A DNA stretch of 48,036 nucleotides from an uncultured Schlesneria sp. (GTDB lineage Bacteria; Planctomycetota; Planctomycetia; Planctomycetales; Planctomycetaceae). The stretch is taken from the NCBI GenBank assembly GCA_903834925.1, contig CAILLA010000223.1, positions 1 to 48,036 on the forward strand, read 5' to 3'. This document shows positions 3,701-26,973 of this stretch, piece after piece (positions within the stretch are counted from its first letter, which is position 1; the number at the start of each line of letters is the position of its first letter). The notes below the pieces were generated by a model. The model was not told the DNA's origin. It was given only the letters and a program-made list of their open reading frames with translations, and searched no databases. Position numbers and translations under genes: made by a program.

Positions 3701-4370
3701 TAAGGGCGTCGGTGCAACGATCGCCGTTCCGAATGACCAACATCCACAACACATTCTGGTTGTTCAGGGGATGTTCCAGGACAGCGTCTTTCAGGGAGTC
3801 CTCGTCATGTCCGAAGATGACTTTCTCAAGGTTTACCCCGAACAAAAAGGGTTTCAATACTTTCTGATCGAAGTCCCCCCGGAACAAGCCGAGGTTGCTG
3901 CATCATTCCTGGAAACGGAACTGGCGGAATATGGTTTTGATACCGAGCCCGTTTCCGAACGACTGGCTCGTTTCCTTTCGGTGCAGAACACCTATTTATC
4001 GACGTTTCAGACACTCGGCGGACTGGGGCTGCTTTTGGGGACGTTTGGGCTGGCGACGGTCATGCTGCGTAATGTGCTGGAACGTCAGGCGGAACTGGCG
4101 TTACTTCGTGCCGTCGGTTTTCGCGAACGCAGCGTCGCTTCACTTGTTCTTTGGGAGAATGCATTCATTCTCTTGTGGGGCCTGATCGCAGGTGCGGGGT
4201 CGGCATTACTGGCAACCTCGCCGAATCTTCTCAGCCAGGGAGCGGACCTTCCGTGGAAATCGCTGGCAGCGTTACTCGCCCTTGTGTTTGTCACGGGAAT
4301 GCTTGCGGCGGCATTTGCCGTTCGGGCTGCGGCTCGGCTTCCCATCGTTGCAACGTTACGCGGTGAATGA
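780..4370 (+). CDS. FtsX-like permease family protein (ABC transporter permease)
   Basis: This 1196-residue membrane protein starts with an N-terminal membrane segment (LAVLLGVIAGTAVIGGALVVGDSV), which leads into a long MacB-like extracytoplasmic region. The first FtsX core lies near residues 565-730, with the usual 'RxxDLGLLGAIGFTASQVRRQML' pattern. Two more central membrane segments and a second periplasmic region follow. The second FtsX core is near residues 1070-1190, with 'LALLRAVGFRERSV'. Such proteins are the permease half of ABC transporters for lipoproteins, lipids or export substrates, or act as mechanotransmitters. No ATPase gene is adjacent, so the partner must be elsewhere. The start is a TTG: an in-frame TGA at 738-740 and the absence of an in-frame ATG upstream leave it as the best choice, and no clear ribosome binding site is seen. 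It ends 2 bp from the convergent HD gene. Confidence 0.85.
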   Translation: MANLNRSQLVVQSLLHYWRTNLAVLLGVIAGTAVIGGALVVGDSVKASLRQMTFDRLGKIDFALAGPRFVREQLADEIGRNAGSSKSSVGTVAPGIVMQAGLQSKSNNSIRRAGQVNVYGIDDRIWSLIETDKISRPTATGVVLNSMAANAVNAKVGDDVTVWIEIPSAVPRDTLMGKKDNDSQEITLTVTAIAPESSGLARLGLQPTQALPLNLFVDLHVLQERLGLEEVKPSKKDPSGKVGRVNALFNSRDFEAGASAAQLKAHIQTITETIAQGDLLKEAIQRNWTLADLNLRLVNNPSAGGIVLESEQMILEDKLAAAAVDTANEMNLTTAPVMVYLANKLWNPAVYQPGKRPGYSMYSTVAGLDLLAWDGTPFAGFEFIGDKPTSLEDDEVILNEFLATDLQAKVGDKINFTYHTIGSRGELPELERSVTVRGIVAMTGTAIDRTLTPTVKGITDVASLADWDQPFPMDLDAVTPRDDEYWNSYRATPKLFMPLKTATKLWPSRYGTLTSLRIAQKEIDLNEREKSLASLNEQFSQKLLKNLNAAEVGLQFQPVKAIGLMAASGTTPFAGLFFGFSLFLIIAAMILIGLLFRLGIEQRVRDLGLLGAIGFTASQVRRQMLIEGIFIAVAGGLIGSVLAVGYAKVMIYGLTHWWVDAVGTKNLILEVWPPSLAIGFLIAVVAAVFSIWWSLRQLKQLSLREQLAGVTEQELDVKAQQVRGQKVMRRAIICTVLAGVLIATVVIGIVPAIAAFFGIGILLLIATLSFLSAWLQLDGGVAVKGSGLVAQGRLGLRNASRQRQRTVMTAGMIATATFLIVTVAAFRRDPTGDRPVKNSGNGGFVLVAESSSPVLYDINTPEGRQKLQLNPPEGSPAAKALASMNVVPFRVKPGEDASCLNLYQTKVPTILGAPQSLIEQGRFAFASGSWRELVQQKKSFDTSAKVPASSESERDLSDSIPVLGDMNTLMYSLHKGVGATIAVPNDQHPQHILVVQGMFQDSVFQGVLVMSEDDFLKVYPEQKGFQYFLIEVPPEQAEVAASFLETELAEYGFDTEPVSERLARFLSVQNTYLSTFQTLGGLGLLLGTFGLATVMLRNVLERQAELALLRAVGFRERSVASLVLWENAFILLWGLIAGAGSALLATSPNLLSQGADLPWKSLAALLALVFVTGMLAAAFAVRAAARLPIVATLRGE

Positions 4371-4372
4371 TT

Positions 4373-5749
4373 TCATTCTTGAGCCGCAGCATCAGACAGC
4401 CAGTCGACGAATTCACTGCGTCCTGAAAGCTGTCTGGCCAAATCAGGTTCGGCGAACAAACGAACCCGTTTTACGTAATCATCGAATTGCGTCCGAGCCA
4501 GCGCATGGACGACAGGTGACACCTGGCTCAGGGGGTGATATCGCCGTTCTTTCGGATGATAGATGTCGACTTTGAACTCGACTTCCTTGTGTAACGGCGG
4601 GGCATCAATCAAAAGGTCTGTCGATTCGACGTGACACGAAAGTTCGCGGGCCACTCGTTCCGAAAGTCGCCTGGCGACGTTCAGTAAATCGGCATAAGGT
4701 CGCCCGGCAATCCGACGATAGAGATCCGGCGTCTGATACAGGCTGAGTTCAAGGACTCGCTTGTGCAAGCGGCGTTTCGGGCCGAACAGGCCATCAAGCA
4801 ATGATGCGACAACGGTTCCCGCACTGGAAAGTCTTAGCTCGCGAATCACATCGAATTCGCTCTGTTGAAACAGCGTCTTGAGATCAAGAGATTGATGCAA
4901 TTCATAAAAGCTTCTGGCAAACATACAGGTTGCCGAACGGACTGCATGGTGCCAATAGACCTCGCTGAACATGACGTACCGGGCAAAGACCATCAGTTCT
5001 GCTGCGGTCTTCCCTTTCGAGCTGATCGCAAGACCGTCTCCAGCTTCGTTGACGATCAGCGATTGAATCAGCCGCGCTCGATCAAAATTCCGACCGTAGG
5101 GAACACCGGCATGCAGGCTGTCTCGTTCGAGATAGTCCATTTTGTCGATATCGATCGGCCCCGACAGAATCGATCGCATCAGCCGAAGAGCGGGCGTATT
5201 TGTCTTGGCGACCAGGACATCCAGCACTTCATCCGCTTCGATCTTCCACTCGGAACGAAGTACCTGCCCAAGTTCACGATTCGGTGCGAGAAATTCGGCG
5301 GCAAACTGCTCATGAGGTGGAAGATTCGCCAGCCCCATGTCTTCGATGGGATGGCAAAACGGCCAGTGTCCCAAATCATGCAGCAGCGAAGCGACCATTA
5401 AGACTTCGGCCTGATGTGGACTGACCGCCGCTGCAAACCGCTCGTCCTTTCCCAGTTGCCAAAGATATTTCAAGGCATTGTGAAAGACGCCTAAAGCATG
5501 TTCAAACCGAGTATGGGTGGCGCCGGGGTAGATTCGTGCTGCGAGACCTAATTGAGTGATCTGTCTCAACCGCTGGAACTCGGCGGTATCCACTAGCGAC
5601 CGAACTCTGGGCGTAAACGGAACATCCAGTTGATGCGGGATTCGGACGAGCGGTCCACCGGCCTGAAGATCAAATAATTCGGGTATCTTGCGGTAGGGAT
5701 GCGACATCGTCTGGTTCATCGCTTTGTATAAAGTCGCGTGGGTATTCAC
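4373..5749 (-). CDS. HD domain phosphohydrolase (SAMHD1/dGTPase-like, COG1078 type)
   Basis: This 458-residue protein has the HD-domain metal ligands in order: RFEH near residue 84, LLHDLGH at 122-128 with the HD pair, a conserved HPIED, and a later D in the segment IDIDKMDYLERDS. This layout, with the 'TRFEHALG' and 'DYLERDS' signatures, is that of the HD superfamily related to dGTP triphosphohydrolases and SAMHD1. Members cleave nucleotides or phosphomonoesters; the substrate is not deducible here. The longest frame starts at a GTG at 5749. ATGs at 5719 and 5707 fit homologue length as well or better, so the first 10-14 residues are uncertain. It is a single gene, convergent with the FtsX permease. 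Confidence 0.82.
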   Translation of the reverse strand: MNTHATLYKAMNQTMSHPYRKIPELFDLQAGGPLVRIPHQLDVPFTPRVRSLVDTAEFQRLRQITQLGLAARIYPGATHTRFEHALGVFHNALKYLWQLGKDERFAAAVSPHQAEVLMVASLLHDLGHWPFCHPIEDMGLANLPPHEQFAAEFLAPNRELGQVLRSEWKIEADEVLDVLVAKTNTPALRLMRSILSGPIDIDKMDYLERDSLHAGVPYGRNFDRARLIQSLIVNEAGDGLAISSKGKTAAELMVFARYVMFSEVYWHHAVRSATCMFARSFYELHQSLDLKTLFQQSEFDVIRELRLSSAGTVVASLLDGLFGPKRRLHKRVLELSLYQTPDLYRRIAGRPYADLLNVARRLSERVARELSCHVESTDLLIDAPPLHKEVEFKVDIYHPKERRYHPLSQVSPVVHALARTQFDDYVKRVRLFAEPDLARQLSGRSEFVDWLSDAAAQE

Positions 5750-5858
5750 CCGCTAATCGTGGTTACTTCAATACTGGTTTTTCAAAGCGAAATTCGGGGT
5801 GTCACTGGTCTACCGTTTTCGGTTAACCAGTTTTCTTCGTTTTGCGCACGGAACAAGA

Positions 5859-6239
5859 TCATCGAACCTGATATCCCACATGACGAAGCGCCTTCTGGAG
5901 GCGATCGATCTGGTCACCTTGAATTTCGATCAAGTCGCCGTCGATAGTCCCCCCTGCTCCACAAGCATTTTTCAGCTGAGTTAATAACGCGGGCAAATCG
6001 TTGTCAGTCGCAGCCAGACCACGGATCACAGTCACGAGTTTACCTTTTTTTCGTTTTTCCGTCGACAACTTAGCGGTCTGCTTTTCGGGCGCGACAGTTG
6101 CCCGCCTGACGGTCTCAGGCGGGCATTTGCAGTCGCTTTCTGGTAGATCGCACCGTTCGCAGTGAGGTGGTCGATCAAAAATGGTGCCAGCAAGAAGTCC
6201 CATTTCACCCGATCTGAAAAAAGGCCACAGGCGAGCCAT
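5859..6239 (-). CDS. Translation initiation factor SUI1/YciH family protein
   Basis: The C-terminal 60 residues form a SUI1/eIF1-like domain (GKLVTVIRGL, then LLTQLKNACGAGGT, IEIQGDQ and LRHVGYQVR), as in bacterial YciH, which checks start-site fidelity in translation. The N-terminal part has four cysteines/histidines in HCERC...DCKC, giving a small zinc-ribbon-like tail that I associate with planctomycete members of this family. Homologues usually begin 'MGLxAGT', which corresponds to the ATG at 6203, twelve codons into the frame, so 6203 may be the true start. It lies 13 bp (or 49 bp with the shorter start) after fumC on the same strand and may be co-transcribed with it. Confidence 0.85.
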   Translation of the reverse strand: MARLWPFFRSGEMGLLAGTIFDRPPHCERCDLPESDCKCPPETVRRATVAPEKQTAKLSTEKRKKGKLVTVIRGLAATDNDLPALLTQLKNACGAGGTIDGDLIEIQGDQIDRLQKALRHVGYQVR

Positions 6240-6252
6240 TGTCTTGGAAAAA

Positions 6253-7677
6253 TCACGCGTGTGGTTCGGTCATGCTCCACGGATCAAGAGCTTTCGTCAG
6301 TTGATCGTCGGGAAGAATGTTTTGATCACGGCAAAGCTGCCGGATCGTCTTACCGCTCTTGAACGCTTCTTTGGCAAGTGCCGCCGCTTTTTCATATCCG
6401 ACGAAAGGATTGAGGCTGGTCACCATCGCAAGACTCTTTTCGACACTGGCTTCGCACGCTTCAGGATTTGCTTCCATATCCAGCGCACACAAATCGATGA
6501 AGGCGGTCGTTCCCTGTGCCATCAAGGCGATCGACTCCAGCGTCGCATGGCCCATAATTGGCATCATGATATTCAGTTGAAACTGTCCACCGGTCGCACC
6601 GCTGAAGGCAACCGTCTGATCGTTTCCGATCACCCGAGCGGCGACCTGCATCAGGCTTTCGCACATGACCGGGTTCACCTTACCCGGCATGATTGAACTT
6701 CCCGGCTGGCGATCTGGCAGCATTACTTCATAAAAACCGCAACGAGGACCAGAACCGAGCCAACGAATGTTGTTTGCAACGTTGAAGAGGGTTGTCGCAA
6801 TGGCCCGCAATTGACCGTGGCATTCGACAAGCCCATCGCGTTGAGCATTTCCTTCAAAATGATTAATCGCTTCAACAAAGGGGACCCCCGTTTCTTTTGC
6901 CAGCGCCGCACAGGTGCGACGTGCGAAGTCAGGGTGCGTGTTAATCCCGGTGCCAACAGCGGTTCCCCCAACGGGAAGTTCCAGTACCGCCTGCAACGCC
7001 TGTTTGGCCCGCCCAACGCTCAGCTCCAACTGCCGAGCGAATCCGCCGAACTCCTGGCCAAGCCGCAGTGGCGTCGCATCGGCAAGATGTGTCCGGCCGA
7101 TCTTGATGATTTTGTCCCATTGCTTCGCCTTGTCGGCAAGAACATCGGAAAACCGCTGTAGGGCAGGAATCAGCAACCGATGAATCGACAGTCCGACTGC
7201 AACGTGAATTGCCGTTGGAAACGTGTCGTTGGTGCTCTGCCCCATGTTCACATGGTCATTCGGGTGAATCGGTTTCTTCATTTCGAAACGATTCCCGTCC
7301 GTGATCTCGATCGCACGGTTCGAAATCACTTCGTTGATATTCATGTTGCTCGATGTTCCCGATCCTGTCTGGAAGACATCAATGGGGAATTCGGCATCGA
7401 ACTTGCCTGAAACCACTTCCTTAGCTGCCGCAAGCATCGCTTCGACTTGAGTATCCGTCAGTGGGTTTTTACCAGATCCAGTTAATTTACCGAGATCACG
7501 ATTCGCAACCCCAGCTGCCCATTTCACCAAACCCATGGCGTGAATCATGTCGGGACGAAGGTTCCAACCTGAAACCGGGAAGTTTTCGACAGCCCGCTGC
7601 GTCTGTGCTCCGTAATAGGCCTTGGCCGGGACCTGAACGTCACCCATCGAATCATGCTCGGTACGAAAGTCAGTCAT
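6253..7677 (-). CDS. fumC: Fumarate hydratase class II
   Basis: This 474-residue protein is full length for class II (iron-independent) fumarase, which interconverts fumarate and malate in the TCA cycle. The three superfamily signatures are present: TGSGTSSNMN at 105-113, GRTHLADATP with H197, and the mobile-loop signature GSSIMPGKVNP at 326-336 with the catalytic serine. The segment NHFEGNAQRDGLVECHG is also typical of fumC, not of aspartase or argininosuccinate lyase. The gene precedes the SUI1 factor by 13 bp. Upstream is a 271-bp region shared with the divergent TolC-like gene. Confidence 0.97.
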   Translation of the reverse strand: MTDFRTEHDSMGDVQVPAKAYYGAQTQRAVENFPVSGWNLRPDMIHAMGLVKWAAGVANRDLGKLTGSGKNPLTDTQVEAMLAAAKEVVSGKFDAEFPIDVFQTGSGTSSNMNINEVISNRAIEITDGNRFEMKKPIHPNDHVNMGQSTNDTFPTAIHVAVGLSIHRLLIPALQRFSDVLADKAKQWDKIIKIGRTHLADATPLRLGQEFGGFARQLELSVGRAKQALQAVLELPVGGTAVGTGINTHPDFARRTCAALAKETGVPFVEAINHFEGNAQRDGLVECHGQLRAIATTLFNVANNIRWLGSGPRCGFYEVMLPDRQPGSSIMPGKVNPVMCESLMQVAARVIGNDQTVAFSGATGGQFQLNIMMPIMGHATLESIALMAQGTTAFIDLCALDMEANPEACEASVEKSLAMVTSLNPFVGYEKAAALAKEAFKSGKTIRQLCRDQNILPDDQLTKALDPWSMTEPHA

Positions 7678-7769
7678 AAGATTTCCGCTCAGCTTTAATA
7701 GTCAGTTTTTAACGTGTTTTTTAACGAAATCTGTCAACGTCATTCAGCGGCCGGAAGTATAACGTCCGA

Positions 7770-7781
7770 CAGTCCGGACTG
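7770..7781. promoter_or_regulatory. 12-bp perfect palindrome between fumC and the TolC-like gene
   Basis: The sequence CAGTCCGGACTG is its own reverse complement and sits in the divergent intergenic region, about 95 bp upstream of fumC and 170 bp upstream of the TolC-like gene. It could be an operator for a dimeric regulator. Length alone makes chance a real possibility, and no known consensus is recognised. Confidence 0.2.
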
Positions 7782-7948
7782 CGATAAATCGGGTGTCGGG
7801 AATTCGTATCAAAAAAGTAGGATAAATGGCCGGGAATTGGTATGGACTGACATCCACCCCTCTGTTATTCCTCCGCCGCACACGGCAGACTGAAAAGCCG
7901 AATCACTTCTCCCTATTGCGTTAATCACCCATCCAATCCACCAGCGGG

Positions 7949-10123
7949 ATGACCGACACCGTGCCGAGCTTCGTCAGAAGTGCGCGTCTGTCTTGGAGCC
8001 ATTTGTGCTCGTCGGCGGTCGTCTGCGCCATCACAATTGCCGGATGTGCCTCGTGGCGGGGCGATGACCCGCTGGTTCAAAACAAGCTTGTCAGCCACTA
8101 CGATAAGCTGGCTCGCGAGGTCGCTGCACCCAGCCCCAGTTTTATTCCCGAAGTTCCCAGCCCAGTCATGGGTCCCGGGCGACGCCTCATGGCTCCAAAT
8201 CCCGAAGAACGCTGGCATTTGTCGATTGGCGAAGCGATTCGGATGGGCTTGGCGAATAGCTCGATTATTCGCCAGAACGCCCAATTCATGTCACCGAACA
8301 ATCCGGTGATGCAAAGCCCCGATGCTGTCCCTTCGGCCTTTGACCCAATAATCCAGAATGCGGGCGTTCTGTTCGGCTCACGCGGTGTCGATGCGTCCTT
8401 GTCCGATTTTGACCCAAGGTTGACAGTCACGTCAAAAGTAAGCCGTGATGAGATTGCCCAGAACACATCAAACCCCGCATCGGCTCCCCAGGGTAATGTT
8501 TTGGCAACCGAAGGGGTTCAAACGCAGGCCCGTTTGGAGCAACAACTGCTGAGCGGTGGTATTTTTGGGATTAATAATAACTGGAACTACCTTCAGTCGA
8601 ACCAGCCGCAACAGCTTTTTAACTCCAGTTGGACGGGAGTCCTGGGCGTTGATTATCGCCAGCCATTGTGGGCCGGATCCGGTGAGACATTTACTTCGAT
8701 CGCAGGTCCGCTCACACAACGAGCACGTGGTTTCAGCTACGTGAACCAGGGCGTTGTGATCGCGCATATCAATAAGCGATTGTCAGAAATCGATCTGCAG
8801 GAAAATCTTCAGAACTTGCTCCGCGAAATCGGCGATCTGTACTGGGAGCTTTACCAGAGCCATCAGGATTACGCCTCCGAGGTTAAGACATCCAAGCATG
8901 CCAAAGATCTTTGGGAACGTGCAGTCGGTCGCAGGGGAATCGATCCCGGAGTGGAAGAAGCTCAAGCCGAAGACGCGTATTACGAGTCAAAAGCTCGTGA
9001 AGAGACGACTCTTTCTAATCTTTATTTAAACGAAGCGAAGTTCCGGCGATTGCTTGGGTTGTCGCTGGATGATCCTCGCCTGATTTATCCGAGCGACAAG
9101 CCACGCGAGGAAGAAGTGTCACTCAATCGAGCGAAGTGTCTTTACGAAGCACTCGTGAACCGGACCGAACTCTGCCGACAGAAGATTAACGTTCAAAGTC
9201 TTGAGTTGCAGTTAATTGCGGCTCGCAAGCTCGTAGCACCCAAGCTCGATTTTGTCTCTGGCTATGGGATGAACGGATTTGGCAACCACTTTTTCGGTTC
9301 GACAGCGCCGGATAACAATCCTAATATTAATCCTAATAACGCGTTTGTGAATACTGGCGCGGTGTCAAATTTGTTCAGCAGCAAAGAAACCAGCTGGAAT
9401 CTGGGATTCGAATACTCGATCCCGCTCTGGCTTCGTCAGGAAAAGGCTCAGGTTCGTCAATTGGAAATGCGAATTGTGAAGGGTCGTGCCGCACTGGCTG
9501 CCCAGGAAGACGAAGTTGCGTATGAATTGAACTCAACTTTGATGACGATTAAGCGTGCTCTTTCGGTGTCAAAGATCACGAAAAAACGGGTGGAAGCTGC
9601 TGGACGGCGTGTCATCGCGGCGGAATCCGAATACAAGGCAGGCAATAAGAGCAATGACCTGGCGCTGCGGGCACTTACCAGCCAGGCCCAGGCCCAGGCC
9701 GCGTATCACAGAAGTATCGCCGAATACAATAAATCGCTGCGTGATTTGCTGTTCCGAACAGGACGGTTGTTGCCAACTGACGGCGTATTACTTGTTGGTA
9801 CTGATGGAATGCCAATATTGCCGCCATCGGGGATCGATGAGCTGCCAGGTCTGACAGAACCAGGTGACGGTGAGGAGCGACCCGAGGAAGAAACCGATCC
9901 GCTGATTCCTCCCGCGCCGAAAACAGCCCCTCGCGTTGCCTCGACCGAATTTGACGAGGCCATGGAAGATAACCCATTCGACGCAGACGCACCGAGTGTC
10001 ATCGATGACGAAAGCGAAGAGCCTCCTGTCGCAACGAAATCGACGTCAGACGATCTTCAAAACAATCCGTTTGAGACTGAGGAACCAGCCGAGGAAATCG
10101 TACCGGTTTCAGGCCAGCGATAA
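7949..10123 (+). CDS. TolC family outer-membrane efflux lipoprotein
   Basis: This 724-residue protein opens with a short basic segment and a hydrophobic stretch ending in the lipobox ITIAGC (Cys33), so it should be a lipid-anchored outer-membrane protein. Two long alternating helical/strand regions follow (about residues 255-400 and 405-625). Their helices are rich in alanine, glutamine and glutamate, as in the paired OEP domains of TolC/CusC-type channels, for example near 'ISEIDLQENLQNLLREIGDLYWEL'. The last about 90 residues are acidic and low in complexity (EDNPFDADAP, NNPFETEEP), an extension not usual in TolC. No pump or adaptor gene is adjacent; the CusB/CusA-type pair in this window is at 19399-24026. 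The start ATG has only a weak purine tract before it. Confidence 0.88.
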   Translation: MTDTVPSFVRSARLSWSHLCSSAVVCAITIAGCASWRGDDPLVQNKLVSHYDKLAREVAAPSPSFIPEVPSPVMGPGRRLMAPNPEERWHLSIGEAIRMGLANSSIIRQNAQFMSPNNPVMQSPDAVPSAFDPIIQNAGVLFGSRGVDASLSDFDPRLTVTSKVSRDEIAQNTSNPASAPQGNVLATEGVQTQARLEQQLLSGGIFGINNNWNYLQSNQPQQLFNSSWTGVLGVDYRQPLWAGSGETFTSIAGPLTQRARGFSYVNQGVVIAHINKRLSEIDLQENLQNLLREIGDLYWELYQSHQDYASEVKTSKHAKDLWERAVGRRGIDPGVEEAQAEDAYYESKAREETTLSNLYLNEAKFRRLLGLSLDDPRLIYPSDKPREEEVSLNRAKCLYEALVNRTELCRQKINVQSLELQLIAARKLVAPKLDFVSGYGMNGFGNHFFGSTAPDNNPNINPNNAFVNTGAVSNLFSSKETSWNLGFEYSIPLWLRQEKAQVRQLEMRIVKGRAALAAQEDEVAYELNSTLMTIKRALSVSKITKKRVEAAGRRVIAAESEYKAGNKSNDLALRALTSQAQAQAAYHRSIAEYNKSLRDLLFRTGRLLPTDGVLLVGTDGMPILPPSGIDELPGLTEPGDGEERPEEETDPLIPPAPKTAPRVASTEFDEAMEDNPFDADAPSVIDDESEEPPVATKSTSDDLQNNPFETEEPAEEIVPVSGQR

Positions 10124-10211
10124 TCGTTCGAATACTCGGATTACAGCGAAAGTCGCAGCCGCCTCTTCACCTGGCGACGATGCATTTCATACCAATACCT
10201 TGCAGATAGTA

Positions 10212-10224
10212 AGTTGGTACAACT
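10212..10224. promoter_or_regulatory. Short palindrome upstream of the caspase gene
   Basis: AGTTGGTACAACT has 5-bp arms around GTA and lies about 170-180 bp before the caspase-like gene, in the 271-bp stretch that opens the putative conflict locus. It might be an operator, but it is short and unsupported by a second copy. Confidence 0.15.
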
Positions 10225-10394
10225 GATGCACAACGCCTTTTGGCCTATGGCATGAACTGCTGCCAATTCGCGAAAAGTGATTTCTCCTCCATTGACGCGT
10301 CCTTCTTCGACTGCGTTTAATCAATTCAATTGCAGTTTCCTCGCCCTTCTCCGGTCGCAAACGATTGCCCTCGGCGTAGAAGGAATCCACTGAA

Positions 10395-11774
10395 ATGAAC
10401 TGCAACAAAACCGATTGGAAGGTGGGATCTGTGAGAATTCGAGCTCTCATTATTGCGGTCGAAGACTATCCGAAGTCTAAGACGACCTCCACCAAATTGG
10501 AGGGAACGATTGCGAATGCGGAAAACTTCGCAAATGCGCTTCAGGCTTGTTTGAATGTACCTCCTGAGAACATTCTGTTTTGCTGCTCAGGTACCACCAA
10601 CATTCAACAACCGCGAGGAGCGAATAAGCAAGATGTCAGTGATGCAATTCAAGAACTGATTCGCGTAGGAGCCAACCAAACAGACTGCCTGTTTGTGTAC
10701 TTAAGCGGGCATGGTGTGATGAAGCCAGCACAGGGGCCTGAACCACACACGGATGTTCTGCTGTGCGCAGACTTTATCTCCAACGTGGGTGGAACGTCAT
10801 CGTTTCAAATTGATGAATTGACAACACGCCTGGCTCGTGGATTAGGAGTCGGTACGCATCTAACATTCGTGGATGCCTGCCGGACAGCTGACCCCGTGTT
10901 CCCGATTACGCCTTTCGATTTTATCGTGCCGCAGGCCAATGGAACCGCTGACCGGCTACGATTGTCATCAGTATCCACTGGTAATTCCGCAGTCAACGAC
11001 GGTCTATTTACAAACACCTTGATTGACAGTCTCAACGGACGCTTGTCCCTGGAAATCGACCCCACGGACCCCACTTCATGTTGGGTCACCTTTCGCAGCA
11101 TCCTCAATGATGTCAATCGCGCGATGGAACCTCTACAGCGAGTTCCAGAACCAAAGACTGAGGGAAAAGCGGATTACCGTATCCACAAGTTTCAAAGAGC
11201 CAACGCAGTACCGTCAGTGCTTAGCCCCGATGGCCGAAAAGCACCGCCTGTTGAACTGTTGCGAGACAATGATGAAATCATTTTTCTTGGCGAAACAAAC
11301 AGTCAACTCGCTGGCAAATTGAGGGACGGTAATTGGACGATCATTCTCAATAAGCCAAATTTTCTCGAACAGGCATTTGAATTGCGAAAAGGGCGAAAGT
11401 GGAAACGTCTCGATGTGTTCAGCATTGAAGATCTTTCCACGGCGGGGCGGCCAGATCGAACGGTCGCTGAACTTGAACTCGAAAGACAAGAAGCGGAAGA
11501 CTTCTTGCGAACCAACGCTTCGAGGCTTGCCATCGAATTGCGACTCTATCGCTACGCTTATGCCGGTGTTTATGCCTCCCTCTGGACTTCAACTGACGAA
11601 AAACGGCGTGCGCATGTCAGTCCCCGTGTGTTGGGGATGGATATCCGCACGGCCCCATCGAGTGATTTTGTCGATTTTCCCGGTAATCGTCACCCAACGA
11701 TCGGCAATTACTTCGAGCTGGTCAAAAAGATCGTCTCACAGCCGTCAACATACTGCATCTATAAACAGGCATAA
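10395..11774 (+). CDS. Caspase-like cysteine protease (peptidase C14 family)
   Basis: The N-terminal about 245 residues form a caspase/metacaspase fold. A first strand (RALIIAVEDYP) is followed by a helix and strand, then the catalytic His motif VYLSGHG (H106) and the catalytic Cys motif FVDACR (C162). A later strand and helix (GLFTNTLIDSL) complete the fold. The caspase fold cleaves proteins after Arg/Lys or Asp and in bacteria is often found in abortive conflict systems. The remaining about 210 residues match nothing I recognise; they contain strand-rich and coiled segments and may sense or regulate. A GTG at 10431 (residue 13) has a purine-rich AAGGTGG just upstream and may be the true start. 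It is followed after only 15 bp by the double-trypsin gene, implying one transcript. It has no signal peptide, so it should act in the cytoplasm. Confidence 0.85.
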   Translation: MNCNKTDWKVGSVRIRALIIAVEDYPKSKTTSTKLEGTIANAENFANALQACLNVPPENILFCCSGTTNIQQPRGANKQDVSDAIQELIRVGANQTDCLFVYLSGHGVMKPAQGPEPHTDVLLCADFISNVGGTSSFQIDELTTRLARGLGVGTHLTFVDACRTADPVFPITPFDFIVPQANGTADRLRLSSVSTGNSAVNDGLFTNTLIDSLNGRLSLEIDPTDPTSCWVTFRSILNDVNRAMEPLQRVPEPKTEGKADYRIHKFQRANAVPSVLSPDGRKAPPVELLRDNDEIIFLGETNSQLAGKLRDGNWTIILNKPNFLEQAFELRKGRKWKRLDVFSIEDLSTAGRPDRTVAELELERQEAEDFLRTNASRLAIELRLYRYAYAGVYASLWTSTDEKRRAHVSPRVLGMDIRTAPSSDFVDFPGNRHPTIGNYFELVKKIVSQPSTYCIYKQA

Positions 11775-11789
11775 TCTGTCGAGGCCATC

Positions 11790-13880
11790 ATGGAAAACGC
11801 ATTTAGACAATTGTCCGCCCGTGTCGAACGTGCTTTTCGATACTCGACCCCGACAAAGGTGGCTGGAGGCCGTCGTGCGATCGTGGGACCGCACAATTTT
11901 AGTAAGCTCGTTCAAGAAGCAGAGGAGGCTCGCCAGATTCTCCTGAAAGGGGGTGAGCCGAATCCGGTTCAATGGGCCGCGATCGAGCAAGCAATTCGTT
12001 TGCAACGTCCAGCGCCGACCTGCAATCGGGATGGAATTACGGTACTTCCACAGGAGGGGAATTGGCTCGCGGAAGTCTGGACGAAATTTCAACCGATGCT
12101 ACAGCAGTTGCAAAGAAGCGTCGCCAGATTGGACCGCATTGATGATCCAGAAGGTGGCGTCAATGGACTGACTGCGTTCGGAACCGGGTTTCTGGTAGCC
12201 GCTGACAAACTAATGACGGCAGCACACGTTGTCGATCAGCTCAGTTTTTCGACAGGACGTCTCGAACGTGGTCAAGCGATTGCCGAATTCGAAAGTTATT
12301 ACCATCAAGCGACCAGCGAGACTCGTGAAATTGTCAGTGTGCTTGCAATTGATCACGAGATCGATTTGGCACTATTGCAAATCAATCCGATCGATGTCGA
12401 CGACGGGTCGCGACCGCTTCTGCTCAACAAACAGAGTCGAGCGGTACCTGAATTTCCGGTTTGCGTGATCGGATATCCCTTAAACGATCCACGAAACCCT
12501 CACCCCTTGGTTGCTTTACTTTTTGGGGACGGATTCAAGATCAAGCGAGCGGCACTTGGTGAAATTATCGACGTTGCTCCCACGCGGTTCTCCCACGATT
12601 GCAGCACGCTTGGCGGCAACAGTGGATCGCCCGTCATCGATCTTTCCACTGGACTTGTCTGCGGCATCCACGTCCAAGGCGAATCGCTGATGCGCAATGA
12701 AGCGGTCAGCGCAGCCGTCGCGACCGAGTTCATGTCCGGAAAGCCGAAACCACCTGACCGGAGAAAAACTTCTCGGCCAGCCGCAACCCTACAACACAAT
12801 CTGGTTTTCGACGACTTTTTCCGCGAGTTCAGGAACGTCGATGCAGAATTAAAAGCCGAGTTGGACGCAGCTTTTGAAGATGCCGAGAAAAAGGAATCGG
12901 TTGCAGGTGCTGGCAACCCATTTTTACGTGAAACGATCGTCCTGACCAAAGGGCGTCCCGTTCTCGACATTAAAAATGGTGACACAATTATTGACTTTAA
13001 TGAGGTCGAGAGTGAGATCTGGAGGAAGCGACTGAGCGATGCTGACCGCCTGCTGGCTCCTAACATTTCCGCTGTGGGCCGGATTGAATTGGTGAACCAT
13101 CCTCGGGGTGTTCCGTGGATCGGGACCGGATGGCTGCTCAAAGATAATGTTGTTGTGACCAACCGGCATGTTGTTGAGGAATTTGGCGAGGCATATGGTT
13201 CCGACTTTGTCTTTCGGCTGGGTATCGATGGATCAATGATGCGAGCCAACATCGATTTCCTGGAAGAGTTCGGTAACGACAATCGCCGTGAGTTTCCACT
13301 TTTCAAGATCATGCACATCGAACGGGGGGGTGGTCCGGATCTTGCATTTCTCCGCATAGAACCGATCGACGGACAATCTTTGCCTCAACCCGTAAGAATC
13401 TCGTCGACCTCCGCCCAGCCAGGCGAACAGGTCGCAGTGATTGGGTATCCCGCTCGCGACCCTTCCTTTCCCGATCCACAAGAAATGGATCGAATCTTCA
13501 ACAATCGTTACGACAAGAAGCGACTCGCACCAGGATTCATCACGGGAAAAGAAGCTGACCGCATCTTTCATGACTGCTCAACTTTGGGAGGAAACTCCGG
13601 TGGAGAAGTTGTCTCATTAAGAACCGGCGATGCGCTCGCCCTTCATTTCGCCGGAACGTTGTTCAAAAAGAATCACGCTGTACCTATCGAGACCGTCGCA
13701 CAACGATTAGATGACGTCTTGAATCATCGGTTCAAACAATCCTGGAACGTGACGGCCACGAGCCAGGAAGTTTCGAATGTGCAGTCGAAGATCGATTCAG
13801 GCGTGATTGAAATCACAATTCCCGTCAAACTTCGTGTCGAGGTTGGCAACCACTCGACAACAGGTAACGAGCCGATCTAA
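11790..13880 (+). CDS. Tandem trypsin-like serine protease (two complete catalytic domains)
   Basis: This 696-residue protein carries two trypsin-fold proteases in one chain. The first (about residues 125-315) has TAAHVV with H146, DHEIDLALL with D192, and GGNSGSPV with S278. The second (about 430-640) has TNRHVV with H460, GPDLAFLRI with D517, and GGNSGGEV with S603. Both triads look intact. A helical N-terminal segment (about 35-115) and a charged helical linker (about 340-425) flank them and could be adaptor or effector-associated regions. There is no signal peptide, unlike DegP/HtrA proteases, and no PDZ domain is visible, so cytoplasmic action is likely. GAGG lies 5 bp before the ATG. 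The gene follows the caspase by 15 bp and precedes cdd by 31 bp. A role as partner or target of the caspase in a proteolytic cascade is inference from this linkage. Confidence 0.85.
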   Translation: MENAFRQLSARVERAFRYSTPTKVAGGRRAIVGPHNFSKLVQEAEEARQILLKGGEPNPVQWAAIEQAIRLQRPAPTCNRDGITVLPQEGNWLAEVWTKFQPMLQQLQRSVARLDRIDDPEGGVNGLTAFGTGFLVAADKLMTAAHVVDQLSFSTGRLERGQAIAEFESYYHQATSETREIVSVLAIDHEIDLALLQINPIDVDDGSRPLLLNKQSRAVPEFPVCVIGYPLNDPRNPHPLVALLFGDGFKIKRAALGEIIDVAPTRFSHDCSTLGGNSGSPVIDLSTGLVCGIHVQGESLMRNEAVSAAVATEFMSGKPKPPDRRKTSRPAATLQHNLVFDDFFREFRNVDAELKAELDAAFEDAEKKESVAGAGNPFLRETIVLTKGRPVLDIKNGDTIIDFNEVESEIWRKRLSDADRLLAPNISAVGRIELVNHPRGVPWIGTGWLLKDNVVVTNRHVVEEFGEAYGSDFVFRLGIDGSMMRANIDFLEEFGNDNRREFPLFKIMHIERGGGPDLAFLRIEPIDGQSLPQPVRISSTSAQPGEQVAVIGYPARDPSFPDPQEMDRIFNNRYDKKRLAPGFITGKEADRIFHDCSTLGGNSGGEVVSLRTGDALALHFAGTLFKKNHAVPIETVAQRLDDVLNHRFKQSWNVTATSQEVSNVQSKIDSGVIEITIPVKLRVEVGNHSTTGNEPI

Positions 13881-13896
13881 TCATCAAGAAAGCAGA

Positions 13897-13902
13897 ACGG
13901 AG
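13897..13902 (+). promoter_or_regulatory. Ribosome binding site deciding the TTG start of cdd
   Basis: ACGGAG lies 9 bp before a TTG at 13912. A longer frame can begin at an ATG at 13807, but that would overlap the protease gene by 74 bp and add 35 residues not found in cytidine deaminases. This site therefore supports the TTG. Confidence 0.5.
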
Positions 13903-13911
13903 TCTTCACAA

Positions 13912-14319
13912 TTGGAAACCGAACCGAACCTCATCCGCTTGATCGAACTGGCAAAAGCGGCAAGCAAGAAGGCGTACTGTCCCTACAGCAAATTTCAAGT
14001 TGGCGCGATCGTTGTCACTGAATCTGGCGAAGAATTTTCCGGATGCAACGTGGAAAACGCATCATACGGATTGACGATCTGCGCCGAGCGAAATGCCATT
14101 TTTCAAATGGTCGCGCAAGCTCGACATCGGATCAAGCTGGTCGTGATTTACACACCAACAAAAGAACCTGCTTCTCCATGCGGCGCATGCCGGCAGGTGA
14201 TCAATGAGTTTGCAACAGGCGTACGAATCGTTTCCGCATGTGATTCAGAAAAACGGATTGACACGACAATAGACCACCTGCTTCCCGGTGCTTTTGGGCC
14301 AAACAATCTCGGTAACTGA
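13912..14319 (+). CDS. cdd: Cytidine deaminase
   Basis: From the TTG the product is 135 residues, the normal length of the small tetrameric cytidine deaminases such as that of Bacillus subtilis. It has the zinc-site signatures CAERNAIF (catalytic Glu in the CAE motif) and PCGACRQV (two zinc cysteines), preceded by YCPYSKFQVGA and GCNVENASYG. It ends with LLPGAF, also conserved. The enzyme hydrolyses cytidine and deoxycytidine to uridine and deoxyuridine in pyrimidine salvage. It sits 31 bp after the double-trypsin gene and before a strong terminator, so it is probably the last gene of the caspase-trypsin transcript. It may be a housekeeping gene caught in the locus or may take part in nucleotide depletion; the sequence looks like an ordinary Cdd and does not decide this. 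Confidence 0.92.
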   Translation: METEPNLIRLIELAKAASKKAYCPYSKFQVGAIVVTESGEEFSGCNVENASYGLTICAERNAIFQMVAQARHRIKLVVIYTPTKEPASPCGACRQVINEFATGVRIVSACDSEKRIDTTIDHLLPGAFGPNNLGN

Positions 14320-14610
14320 ACCGAAGATTCAACCCCGATGACGAACTTCCGCCCCGACAAAAGCCATGACAGACCGACTCTTCGGCAATTCAAGGGAGAC
14401 GACTCGCAGAACTGTCGACTCATGCGTGGGCTAAACTTTTCATAAACGGCGTGTCCCGGGCGTTCGCATGGCTTTCTGGTAAATCCTCGATCTTCGTCGA
14501 GTCGAAAGTTCGGGTTTGGGTGGATATCTTCTCGGCTACCCCTTGCAATATAATCCGAGCGCCAGGCATTTCGTGGGTTGAGTGAGCAACCGAACCACGC
14601 GATGTTGATG
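14320..14610. other. Intergenic stretch with no supported gene
   Basis: This is the 5' portion of the 411-bp gap between cdd and the TIR gene. An open frame on the minus strand (14148-14630) crosses it but is largely the shadow of cdd and shows no family features. Apart from the terminator just downstream, I see nothing coding in it. Confidence 0.5.
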
Positions 14611-14648
14611 CGATTGACCGATGCTGGCATCGGTCAATCGAGTTTTTT
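14611..14648 (+). terminator. Strong intrinsic terminator after cdd
   Basis: Perfect 14-bp arms (14611-14624 and 14627-14640) are separated by TG and followed by AG and six T residues. This is a classic Rho-independent terminator for plus-strand transcription. It should end the caspase-trypsin-cdd transcript and separate it from the TIR gene, which begins 83 bp later. The T-run is only on the plus-strand side. Confidence 0.85.
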
Positions 14649-14718
14649 CGTAGTCAATTCAAAAATATCAACCGTCAAAGTCAGCAATGTAGTTTGATCG
14701 ATTGGAATCGTTTCCGAG

Positions 14719-14724
14719 AAGGAT
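14719..14724 (+). promoter_or_regulatory. Ribosome binding site of the TIR-SLOG gene
   Basis: AAGGAT, 6 bp before the ATG at 14731, is a clear Shine-Dalgarno sequence in a window where many genes have none. A dedicated promoter should lie between the terminator and this site (14649-14718), but I could not place -35 and -10 boxes with confidence. Confidence 0.55.
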
Positions 14725-14730
14725 CTGTAA

Positions 14731-16893
14731 ATGTCATATCTACCTCCGCTACACATCCATCTTCTTTTCCATCCTGCGTCTGTTGACGGTCGAAAACTGG
14801 GGGAATCGCTGGTGCCGAGATTTTTGGCTGCGCCAGCCGTTCGTGGTTTGCGTGTTCCCGTTTTTCTTACCCCCGACCGAGGTGATGGCCTGCCACCTCG
14901 GCTGGCACCCGATCCTCAAATTCCGAACGACGCGGACTGGTTAAACTTGGACGCCGCCCAACATACTGTGGTTGTCATTATCGCTGACTCGCGAATGAAT
15001 CGGCGAGTTGGCGGCGGAACCGGTGAAGAGTGGGGCGAGTTCGCTAAGAAATTGATCTTCAATTACGATCCCGCACGTCATGCGGTCCTGTTGGTATCGC
15101 TCGACGATCAGGGCGTGAAGTTGGAAGAATCGCTTGCAGCACTCAATTTCATCACGTTCAAACAAGATCAGGATCAACTGGCCCGCGAGGAAGAGATCGC
15201 GTTCCAGCTGGCCGTACGAGCGTTCATGTTGTTGCGAAGTTCAAACAAAAACCTGGATTCGACAAACTCGCGACTGCAGGCCCCCGTCTGTTTTTTTCTA
15301 AGTCATGCTAAGGCCGACCTGGATAAAGATCGTAAAGGCCCCGTGCATCGAGTGCTTGAAGAAATCGCCACCATGCGGATTGATAACTGGTATGACGCAC
15401 GAAAGATTGGGGTTACCGAAGAATTTACCGATGTGATCAAACAGGGAATCGAAGACTCGGACCTGATGATCGTCTTTTTGACGGATTCCTGGGCGAAATC
15501 ATCCTGGTGCCGGATGGAGGCGGCTTACGCAAAAGAAGTTGCTACACCGATTCTTATTGTTGATGCACTGAAAGACGGTGAGCCAAGAAGCTTCCCCTAC
15601 GGAGGAAACGTCAAGGTTGTACGATGGCCAATTCCGGACGAAGCGACGTTACGCGTTTGCCTGGGTCAGGACGTCCTTCAAGAACAGATCGAAGCAACCT
15701 TAAGTAAGTTTCGACCAATTGCTGCCAGAAAACTGTTGAGCGCCTGCATTCTAGAAACCCTGAATCGTTCACATTTGTTGAACCAAATGAGTAGTCAGGC
15801 ACGAAAGGGCGATGTTTGTCTGGATGTTTCTCCGGAACCAGTCCACCTTGCAACTCATCCCAAGGAGAATTCGTTCCTTTATCCCGACCCTCCGCTGACG
15901 GGTGAGGAATACAATTTCTTGCGAGGCCTTCGCCCCGAAGGGACCTTTGAGACGCCATTGATGCGCATCGCCAGCGCGCTAAAACTCACGAAACCGCTGT
16001 CGATTGCCGTTTCTGTTGCCGACAGCGAAGTTTTGTCGAAACATGGGCTGACGCCGTGGCACTTAAGAACGATTACTGATGAGATTCATCTCTATTTATT
16101 GGTTGCGGGATTGCGGATTGCTTATGGAGGGAAACTCGAGCCCGAAAAACTTGACGACCCAGATAACTTCACCTTGCGACTTTTTAATCTGGTAACGGCC
16201 TATCGAGGATTGGCAACAACGATCGGAGCCAACCTTGCACCAATTCTCAACGTCGCACCCTGGCCACTTTGGAAGTCGTATGACGACAAGGTTCTGGACA
16301 AGTTTGGTACGATTGCCGATCTTGAAGAAGTCCCTTGCCCAGAGCTCGATCTCTCAGATACCGAGCTGAAGCCGCTGCCAAACGGATTCGTTGTCCCGAA
16401 TACGATCCCTCATCAGTATGCATGGGGCTGTTCCATGACGGCGATGCGTGAGAAGTTAACGGTCGATTCGTTCGCGCGCGTCGTCATGGGAGGCAAAATC
16501 GAAGGCTACAAGGGTCGCTACGCCGGGTTGATTGAGGAACCCTTACTTTCTTTGCGTGCAAAGAAACCACTGTTTCTGATCGGTGCATTGGGCGGCTGCG
16601 CACGACTGGTCATTGATTTGATTGAGCAACGCGATCGACCAGAGATGACAACCGAAGTCGCGCGAGCCAACATACCGGACTATGACGCTTTAGCAAACTT
16701 CTATGCGATTAAAGGCCGAGAGTTCATAACTCGCGAGCAACTCGCCGCTGAGTTCAAGAAAAGCGGGAAGGACGGCCCTAAAGATGCCCTCCATAATGGT
16801 TTGGACGATGATCAAAACCGAGAACTTTTCTATTGCACGGACCCACATCGGATTGCAGAATTAATTCTGACAGGAATTTCAAAATTGATTTGA
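14731..16893 (+). CDS. TIR domain protein with C-terminal SLOG-like nucleotide-sensor domain
   Basis: This 720-residue protein has three parts. Residues 1-170 form a Rossmann-like region (LHIHLLFHPAS, GLRVPVFLTPD, TVVVIIADSRM, EEWGEFA) that resembles a diverged TIR-like domain. Residues 184-300 are a canonical TIR: CFFLSHAKAD, then a helix, DSDLMIVFLTDSWAKSSW, and CRMEAAYA with the presumed catalytic Glu263, so it probably cleaves NAD+ and may make a cyclic ADP-ribose signal. Residues about 422-630 look like a SLOG fold: a SIAVSVADSE strand, LLVAGLRIAYGGKLE, MGGKIEGYKGRYAGLIEEPLL (partial) and FLIGALGGCARLV. SLOG domains bind NAD-derived nucleotides, as in Thoeris ThsA. A short helical tail follows. 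It has its own ribosome binding site and lies after the terminator that ends the caspase-trypsin-cdd unit. No transmembrane segment is seen. The TIR call is firm and the SLOG call is good. Confidence 0.85.
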   Translation: MSYLPPLHIHLLFHPASVDGRKLGESLVPRFLAAPAVRGLRVPVFLTPDRGDGLPPRLAPDPQIPNDADWLNLDAAQHTVVVIIADSRMNRRVGGGTGEEWGEFAKKLIFNYDPARHAVLLVSLDDQGVKLEESLAALNFITFKQDQDQLAREEEIAFQLAVRAFMLLRSSNKNLDSTNSRLQAPVCFFLSHAKADLDKDRKGPVHRVLEEIATMRIDNWYDARKIGVTEEFTDVIKQGIEDSDLMIVFLTDSWAKSSWCRMEAAYAKEVATPILIVDALKDGEPRSFPYGGNVKVVRWPIPDEATLRVCLGQDVLQEQIEATLSKFRPIAARKLLSACILETLNRSHLLNQMSSQARKGDVCLDVSPEPVHLATHPKENSFLYPDPPLTGEEYNFLRGLRPEGTFETPLMRIASALKLTKPLSIAVSVADSEVLSKHGLTPWHLRTITDEIHLYLLVAGLRIAYGGKLEPEKLDDPDNFTLRLFNLVTAYRGLATTIGANLAPILNVAPWPLWKSYDDKVLDKFGTIADLEEVPCPELDLSDTELKPLPNGFVVPNTIPHQYAWGCSMTAMREKLTVDSFARVVMGGKIEGYKGRYAGLIEEPLLSLRAKKPLFLIGALGGCARLVIDLIEQRDRPEMTTEVARANIPDYDALANFYAIKGREFITREQLAAEFKKSGKDGPKDALHNGLDDDQNRELFYCTDPHRIAELILTGISKLI

Positions 16894-16920: not shown

Positions 16921-16960
16921 AATAGGATGTATAGGTCTTATACGACCTACACATCCTATT
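16921..16960. repeat. 40-bp near-perfect inverted repeat downstream of the TIR gene
   Basis: Arms of 17 bp at 16921-16937 and 16944-16960 pair with a single A/C mismatch around a 6-base centre, TTATAC. It starts 27 bp after the TIR-SLOG stop codon. No T-run follows on either side, so it is not a standard intrinsic terminator, though the hairpin could still stabilise the mRNA 3' end or be a recombination or protein-binding site. Confidence 0.7.
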
Positions 16961-17020
16961 GTGATCTTGCCAATAAATGACATGCATCAGCGATCGAAGC
17001 CGTTGTCATTTTGACGGATT

Positions 17021-17070
17021 GCCCGTAACGGGCATTGGATCTAAATGCCCGTTACGGGCATTGGATCTAA
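17021..17070. repeat. Two tandem 24-bp repeats, each with a palindromic core
   Basis: Copies at 17021-17044 and 17047-17070 differ at one base and have a 26-bp period. Each starts with GCCCGTWACGGGC, a 13-bp palindrome, followed by ATTGGATCTAA. The pattern of two palindromes on adjacent helical faces (26 bp, about 2.5 turns) could be a regulator binding site. It could also be a remnant of a repetitive extragenic element. It lies between the TIR gene and a decayed PEP-CTERM gene. Confidence 0.65.
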
Positions 17071-17153
17071 CCGACACCTTGCTTGAATTGGCTTCAAACA
17101 GCCGAATCAATGAAAAACATTTTCGGCGTCGCGCGCAATGGCAATTCAATGAA

Positions 17154-26211: not shown

Positions 26212-26973
26212 TCATTCGCCGAGCCACCAGCGTCGTTTCGGTCGAGGGCCGTAGGTCAGTCCAAATTGCGTCGTGACAATTTTCGTGATCACAGCAACAG
26301 CTTCCTCCGGGGAGTCAAGAACGATAATCCGATCAACGTCCGCAGCATCGATCGTCTTCGCTTCCAAGAGTCGCTCCCTGAAGAAAGTCAATAACGGCTG
26401 CCAATAGTCCTTTCCCATCAGAATCAGCGGAAAGTCCTCGACTTTGTGGGTCTGCACCAGCGTGGCGAGTTCAAAGATTTCGTCTAGCGTCCCGAAACCA
26501 CCGGGGCAGGCAATGAACGCATAAGAGTATTTGACGAGCATCATTTTGCGAACAGAAAAATGACGGAAGGTGATCCACCGGTCGAGATAAGGGTTCGGAC
26601 TTTGCTCATGCTCTAATTCGATATTGCAACCGACGGAATAGCCGCCGGCTTCTTTCGCACCTCGATTGGCCGCTTCCATGATGCCGGGACCGCCACCGGT
26701 CATGACAGTGAACCCTGCCTTGGCGATCTGCGATCCGACTTCTCGCGCCAATTTGTAATAAGGTTGATCTTCAGTAAACCGGGCTGATCCGAAAACCGTG
26801 ACACACGGTCCAACGAAGTGAAGGGTTCGAAATCCGTTCAAGATTTCCCAGAAAATGCGGATGGCACGAAAAAGCTCAAACCGACGGGATTGAGGTCCCT
26901 GAATGAATCGGGCCACTTCGGCATTCGGAGCACCGACACCCCAGTCCGAAGAAGATTTGGCTGGCTGAGGCAA
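26212..26973 (-). CDS. LOG family protein (TIGR00730, nucleotide 5'-monophosphate N-ribosidase-like)
   Basis: This 253-residue protein has a Rossmann fold with both LOG signatures: GGGPGIMEA at 93-101 and PGGFGTLDE at 157-165. These proteins hydrolyse nucleotide monophosphates (cytokinin riboside 5'-phosphates in plants, purine or pyrimidine NMPs in bacteria). The start is a TTG at 26973: an in-frame stop lies shortly upstream and no ATG is available. The N-terminal about 55 residues are longer than in small LOG proteins, as in the subgroup often mis-called lysine decarboxylase. It follows the dehydratase gene by 79 bp on the same strand. It belongs to the same broad fold family as the SLOG domain at 14731, but nothing links the two genes. 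Confidence 0.88.
   Translation of the reverse strand: MPQPAKSSSDWGVGAPNAEVARFIQGPQSRRFELFRAIRIFWEILNGFRTLHFVGPCVTVFGSARFTEDQPYYKLAREVGSQIAKAGFTVMTGGGPGIMEAANRGAKEAGGYSVGCNIELEHEQSPNPYLDRWITFRHFSVRKMMLVKYSYAFIACPGGFGTLDEIFELATLVQTHKVEDFPLILMGKDYWQPLLTFFRERLLEAKTIDAADVDRIIVLDSPEEAVAVITKIVTTQFGLTYGPRPKRRWWLGE

Follow-up and report, generated by a model that had tools for sequence, protein, structure and literature searches.

Do a caspase gene, a gene for a duplicated trypsin and a gene for a TIR protein with a SLOG domain, found together on one strand of a planctomycete contig, form one system, or are they separate units that came to lie side by side? The question is raised by a block at positions 10,395 to 16,893 of a 48,036-nucleotide stretch of an uncultured Schlesneria sp. 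(GenBank assembly GCA_903834925.1, contig CAILLA010000223.1), which as a whole is termed the window. Comparison of gene neighborhoods supports, at more than one independent locus, an association of the protease genes with the TIR-SLOG gene beyond chance. That the TIR-SLOG protein constitutes, together with caspase and twin trypsin, a single intracellular conflict cassette, probably anti-phage and abortive, with a cytidine deaminase as passenger, is a reading which we hold to be evenly poised between right and wrong. The element that connects the window to the other loci is the C-terminal domain (CTD) of the caspase.

The layout proposed in the initial annotation, namely caspase, trypsin, deaminase, terminator and TIR-SLOG, all on one strand (here the plus strand), is confirmed by the coordinates and the Pfam domains, and the catalytic residues named there (H106/C162, S278/S603 and E263) are all present. 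The caspase gene (10395-11774, 459 amino acids) encodes a protease domain of metacaspase fold (residues 1-240, 10395..11114), which matches Peptidase_C14 (PF00656) above the cut-off (5e-15) and a PADLOC defence model (2e-12) and contains the dyad of H106 (SGHG) and C162 (DAC). Its C-terminal part is the CTD (residues 226-459, 11070..11771), for which no match was obtained in Pfam, PADLOC or NCBIfam. The twin trypsin gene (11790..13880, 696 amino acids) starts after a gap of 15 bp and is followed, after another 31 bp, by the cytidine deaminase gene (Cdd; 13912..14319, TTG start). The TIR-SLOG gene (14731..16893) codes for 720 amino acids arranged as an alpha/beta region (1-170), a TIR domain (186-300, with E263) and a SLOG domain of cluster 2 (about 420-720). 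The distance from the caspase to the TIR-SLOG gene is 2.96 kb, with the trypsin, Cdd and the terminator in between.

Both domains of the TIR-SLOG protein are assigned by Pfam (TIR_2, PF13676, 6e-12; SLOG cluster 2, PF18163, 2.5e-79); the SLOG clusters were reportedly defined by Burroughs et al. in 2015. Residue E263 is invariant across 22 aligned proteins. In the predicted model the predicted local distance difference test (pLDDT) falls below 50 only at residues 173-182 and 217-227, and structure comparison of this model depicts a resemblance of the SLOG fold to the SLOG domain of ThsA that binds cyclic ADP-ribose, while the N-terminal 170 residues returned no row of their own. Relatives were collected at 77 loci from several phyla (21-75% identity over the best segment), and this collection was gathered without use of the CTD. 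Open reading frames (ORFs) of the fetched loci were called with a simple script that takes the longest ORF; at least one real gene (the SLOG2 gene of locus L188) was missed in this way, and some artefacts arose in GC-rich DNA.

The caspase domain itself finds weak matches alone, in two of 149 and six of 392 genomes with the own genome in both counts, and was rejected as the conserved partner; the recurring element is therefore the CTD. Six proteins make up the CTD family here, and all six aligned CTDs share the motif HxSxxxxG. Elsewhere the CTD is joined to other enzymes, the window being the case in which its carrier is a caspase. Three of the 77 TIR-SLOG loci harbor a CTD gene (L076, L106 and L123), and they belong to two phyla other than planctomycetes. 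In L076 (Myxococcota) the CTD protein, whose N-terminal region resembles a phosphoesterase below the Pfam cut-off, is encoded directly upstream of TIR-SLOG, and a subtilase gene overlaps the end of the latter. In L106 (Verrucomicrobium, 1153-12424) a same-strand series of five genes encodes a lipase, a metzincin-like protein (match below cut-off), an HEVGH-CTD protein, a nucleoside phosphorylase-NTPase-like-HD protein and TIR-SLOG. The third locus, L123, is from Verrucomicrobia.

Genome-wide searches of planctomycetes lead to the same pairing. The CTD was found in at least three of 392 genomes, namely that of the window, G390 and G198 (partial match), a count which is a lower bound in that seven first-look candidates were scored for most of the genomes. 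SLOG cluster 2 was found in eight of the 392, seven of them above the family cut-off, and all three CTD genomes are among these eight. The hypergeometric chance of such an overlap is 5.6e-6 with the genome of the window and 2.8e-4 without it, figures which presuppose that the same genomes entered both surveys, as their shared handles suggest. In G390 one strand carries, with short gaps and in this order, genes for a TIR-pentapeptide protein, TIR-SLOG, a trypsin of the same family as that of the window, an S8 subtilase, a CTD protein with the zinc-peptidase motif HEVGH and an LRR-Roc-COR-TIR protein, an apparent operon. An added CTD search in 23 genomes from the class of G390 recovered G390 alone. 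In G198 a guanylate-cyclase-type domain and the CTD are parts of one protein. Neither the caspase nor the L106 protein found a match when plasmids were searched. A tree of 43 TIR-SLOG proteins requires four changes to account for the four that are CTD-linked, and 500 of 500 shuffled label sets were as low; as the shuffled labels are neither better nor worse, all that can be taken from the tree is that the pairing does not go back to a single inherited event. Taken with the linkage, we infer a recurrent coupling of TIR-SLOG and CTD.

Several observations weigh against a single cassette. A terminator stands between the TIR-SLOG gene and the protease genes, the caspase domain lacks strong matches as described above, and the CTD family is small. 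Half of its six members came from looking beside TIR-SLOG genes, so that the genome survey is the sole unbiased part, and this survey scored a part of the first-look candidates. The scatter of the CTD-linked proteins on the tree equals that of shuffled labels. The genome of G390 is 80% complete; the CTD match of G198 is partial and its SLOG2 gene lies on another contig. Furthermore, for the nearest relative of the TIR-SLOG protein, from Rhodopirellula maiorica (L064, 75% identity), the ORFs called in the 15.4 kb locus include neither a caspase nor a trypsin match, only a subtilase being found there on the opposite strand. The genome of the 68% identical relative (G013) has no match to the caspase or the trypsin protein, though its contig begins 185 bp upstream of the gene. 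At most TIR-SLOG loci the neighbors are different: the 62 operonic neighbors scanned include one subtilase (L076) and one trypsin (L088, directly after TIR-SLOG). This Pfam scan covered 62 of 80 operonic proteins plus three added ones (the L064 subtilase, the L127 trypsin, which lies beside a match to the SLOG part on the other strand, and L148), and the 65 proteins yielded TIR_2 12 times, Peptidase_S8 twice and Trypsin_2 twice, the rest being scattered.

These observations leave room for an explanation by insertion, according to which a caspase-twin trypsin pair (plus Cdd) and a stand-alone TIR-SLOG gene are two independent units, neither of which needs the other; we consider this possible, if rather doubtful. 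It is favored by the intrinsic terminator at 14611..14640 (plus strand), a 13-bp stem with a T run. The initial annotation had called it strong, and it folds, with its surroundings, at -24.5 kcal/mol (z -4.67, none of 200 shuffles as good). This fold makes it probable that the protease/Cdd genes are transcribed as one unit and the TIR-SLOG gene as another. The region contains 13 terminator-like sites, and 12.2 are expected by chance. The missing caspase and trypsin at the nearest TIR-SLOG relatives point in the same direction, as do the 15 of 75 TIR-SLOG loci (window counted) that are single-gene units by a rule of same strand and gaps under 200 bp, and two caspase-trypsin pairs (L049 and L052) that have no TIR-SLOG match in the surrounding 19.5 kb of sequence. 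Against an insertion speak the G390 operon, which unites TIR-SLOG, a same-family trypsin and the CTD, the CTD at three TIR-SLOG loci elsewhere and the co-occurrence at genome level.

The twin trypsin brings in a different relationship. Trypsin_2 matches it over two stretches (5e-37), and its halves align over 229 columns with 31% identity (4e-24). Both triads are present, S278 and S603 lying in GGNSG, which occurs twice and completes the triads with AAHV/DLALL and NRHV/DLAFL; what look like two trypsins are the duplicated halves of a single protein. The protein ends in a beta-type tail, ITIPVKLRVEVG, and matches the PADLOC 'nacht' defence model (4e-24). Matches were found in 22 of 149 genomes, the own genome included, and the 26 non-self matches fall to the second module in 17 cases and to the first in nine. 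The second module is closest to planctomycete proteins, at least four of which (L047, L049, L050 and L056) bear by eye a C-terminal DRGH region of NucA type, confirmed by Pfam for L047. Other same-family trypsins show, again by eye, a lipase-like (L054) or PLD-like (L046) region. A motif ahead of the module reads ETIVLTKGRPVLDI in the trypsin of the window and EAIVLPQERPVLDV in that of G390; a search with it returned 13 ORFs, all same-family trypsins with several loci counted twice. A strict regular expression for the C-terminal peptide matched five of 1833 ORFs, namely three same-family trypsins (two loci, one represented twice) and two unrelated proteins, and missed the tail of the window trypsin itself. 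A caspase gene adjoins a same-family trypsin gene in two other planctomycete genomes (L049:6841-10423 and L052:6345-10352), the L052 protein aligning with the L049 trypsin over most of its length, and a subtilase (S8) gene does so in L050 and L051.

With their NucA, caspase and subtilase partners these loci read as the setting of System 3 of Kaur et al. 2020, which in the accessible part of that source comprises a trypsin plus NucA, sometimes with S8 (PMC7159879). The block could accordingly be a protease cascade of this type, with the nuclease lost or relocated, the caspase as partner protease and TIR-SLOG as a coupled sensor only. Such an origin would fit the similarity of the second module to proteins with NucA-type tails and the S8 partners (L050/L051) and caspase partners (L049/L052) of same-family trypsins, but it is unlikely, with no NucA domain in the 18 window proteins given to Pfam, block included, and with the second trypsin module sitting where the nuclease would be. 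A reversed order, in which an infection-activated caspase or trypsin cleaves TIR-SLOG and releases an NADase, the proteases being sensor and switch and TIR-SLOG the killer, is improbable, since TIR-SLOG mostly occurs without proteases and its model offers only the two short segments of low pLDDT, even if the protein retains the catalytic Glu and, as modeled, a signal-gated NADase layout, and even if protease-activated pro-enzymes are known from the Hachiman/AVAST pro-nuclease and from Canu, as far as the accessible part of PMC12799240 describes them.

For the preferred reading of one cassette, gene linkage is the reason to suppose that TIR-SLOG works with the proteases and the CTD proteins. 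It is also favored by the trypsins at the TIR-SLOG loci L088 and L127, the repeated pairing of caspase and same-family trypsin in L049 and L052, the PADLOC defence models that match both proteases, the invariant E263, the ThsA-like SLOG fold and the precedent of type IV Thoeris. The direction and chemistry of signaling, as we infer them, would be as follows. Upon infection the TIR domain would cleave nicotinamide adenine dinucleotide (NAD+), and the SLOG domain would bind an ADP-ribose-type ligand, as ThsA does, and gate or amplify the TIR domain. The CTD of the caspase would receive the signal state, either as a nucleotide in a PLD-like pocket from which the catalytic Lys and Asp are missing, or through contact with TIR-SLOG itself. 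This reception would free the caspase, whereupon the caspase and the twin trypsin would attack, one after the other, proteins of the cell or the phage. In the relatives, the same socket, made up of TIR-SLOG and a CTD, would carry other outputs, namely a zinc-peptidase-type protein, a subtilase, a nucleotide cyclase or a phosphoesterase.

The fold attributed to the CTD in this scheme is a suggestion of the structure model. The HKD superfamily is characterized by the motif HxK(x)4D; the CTD does not contain it and displays HxSxxxxG instead. The structure rows of the caspase model are mostly caspases, and a PLD-like fold whose HKD motif is degenerate is weakly suggested by a single VIA row and a weak Foldseek row. 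Against sequences of the PDB the CTD gave one match (E 0.0034) to b-iTHR-110, which we take to be a designed repeat protein, and the match was judged to be due to chance. A tentative and somewhat improbable proposal sees in the CTD a new kind of receptor that responds to an NAD-derived signal produced by TIR. Its PLD-like fold, with the catalytic site dead, would couple a caspase, a zinc peptidase, a nucleotide cyclase or a phosphoesterase to the one TIR-SLOG sensor, and the cassette of the window would then be the bacterial equivalent of a caspase pathway gated by a nucleotide, with a cascade from caspase to twin trypsin. The unnamed CTD is the most interesting part of the association of TIR-SLOG with proteases.

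The cytidine deaminase, by contrast, did not hold its place among the components. It matches dCMP_cyt_deam_1 in Pfam (1e-21) and is a full-score Cdd (TIGR01354, 141.6 bits, cut-off 113.65), whereas the model of the anti-phage dCTP deaminase gives 13.8 at a cut-off of 400. Cdd is present in seven of 15 genomes of the genus, own genome included, in copies of 38-54% identity; at two of these Cdd loci (L193 and L194) no caspase, trypsin or TIR-SLOG match was found, and the ORFs called at the 77 TIR-SLOG loci gave no Cdd match at 1e-10. With housekeeping-type scores and no linkage at these loci it was rejected as an unsupported component, and it is probably a bystander in the transcription unit of the protease genes. 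The expectation that the genes of the block co-occur beyond chance was borne out for protease and TIR-SLOG, in G390 and through the CTD at three TIR-SLOG loci, and not for Cdd.

The left flank of the block, from an FtsX protein to an outer-membrane efflux protein, is 83-95% conserved in three genomes of the genus (G005, G001 and G002). Past this flank these genomes contain other genes, with no caspase, trypsin, Cdd or TIR-SLOG match in the stretches compared. Synteny ends right after the left flank, and the block, as judged from this alignment, therefore occupies a variable site. Its base composition is not unusual (GC fraction 0.50-0.52, window 0.52). The own genome (9.02 Mb) contains two caspase, two SLOG cluster 2, 25 Trypsin_2 (two of them in the twin trypsin gene) and 19 TIR_2 matches; a position picked at random has a chance of about 0.0022 of being no more than 5 kb from a SLOG2 gene, and the grouping of these genes in the block thus exceeds chance. 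The location in a defence island that had been envisaged was not recovered, as a Pfam scan of 13-14 other window proteins gave ordinary types or no match and no island around the block; the types include FtsX, HD, outer-membrane efflux, HlyD, CBAH, dihydroxy-acid dehydratase, symporter and histidine kinase, among others, and fumarase and RND efflux genes were assigned by eye. Directly 3' of TIR-SLOG lies a 20-nt inverted repeat (16921..16960, no strand assigned, scan match on the minus strand), a possible terminator, and just downstream of the block two 25-nt direct repeats form 33-nt inverted arms (17004-17076). The window also encodes a LOG-type protein (SLOG cluster 4, lysine-decarboxylase-like; 26212-26973), probably of housekeeping function.

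Three further loci were noted in passing. A second, distant TIR-SLOG gene of the own genome (L045:2566-4878) is situated on a contig of 7.3 kb, which also carries a DUF1501 gene. In Flavobacterium (L103:5607-12090) split TIR and SLOG2 genes accompany MazG_C, HMUDK_hel, Nmad2 and small TIR proteins, possibly a base-modification plus TIR system. Near another planctomycete TIR-SLOG gene (L190:16317-19899) repeated GC-rich ORFs resemble a translated CRISPR array.

Among known systems, type I Thoeris consists of separate genes for a TIR protein (ThsB) and a SIR2-SLOG protein (ThsA). The block differs in that TIR and SLOG are fused, the SLOG domain is of cluster 2 and proteases are adjacent; no SIR2 family was found in the four block proteins with Pfam, PADLOC and NCBIfam. 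With System 3 of Kaur et al. it shares the trypsin-like peptidase core, and the same-family trypsins of relatives have S8 and caspase partners, but no NucA (Endonuclease_NS) match occurs in the four block proteins. The accessible part of the same source also describes caspase systems whose caspase may give way to a cyclase (System 4, PMC7159879), a swap that recurs on the CTD (cyclase of L148). The caspase of the block does not qualify as the EACC1-associated type of System 4, as it reaches 26.8 bits with NF047832 (cut-off 140) and no EACC1 family is among the Pfam, PADLOC and NCBIfam matches of the four block proteins. As far as that source could be consulted, the Kaur systems contain parts of the set without SLOG cluster 2 combined with the CTD and the proteases of the block. 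Canu (caspase-nuclease, CanABC), as described in the accessible part of its source, likewise has a conflict locus that is switched by a caspase-fold protease; the block has TIR-SLOG and trypsin and no nuclease partner was seen in it. A literature search, which reached few subscription papers, found no paper describing the set of caspase, twin trypsin and TIR-SLOG.

In bacterial immunity, TIR, caspase and trypsin parts are known already, and TIR-to-caspase signaling is known from one system. This is type IV Thoeris, where, according to the accessible part of PMC12847820, N7-cADPR made by a TIR protein activates a caspase-like protease. No type IV model is among the PADLOC 2023 or NCBIfam matches of the block proteins, and the comparison, made by gene content and not by protein sequence, sets the SLOG-fused TIR, the trypsin and the CTD of the block apart from it. 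The two have in common a TIR protein and a caspase-fold protease at one locus, and a pathway from signal to caspase would follow the same logic. If the reading as one cassette is true, a TIR-SLOG hub and a tail domain with interchangeable enzymes would show one NAD-based alarm wired to many executioners; the caspase-CTD protein, the twin trypsin and TIR-SLOG form a small, testable gene set, and the CTD is a handle for finding more such systems.

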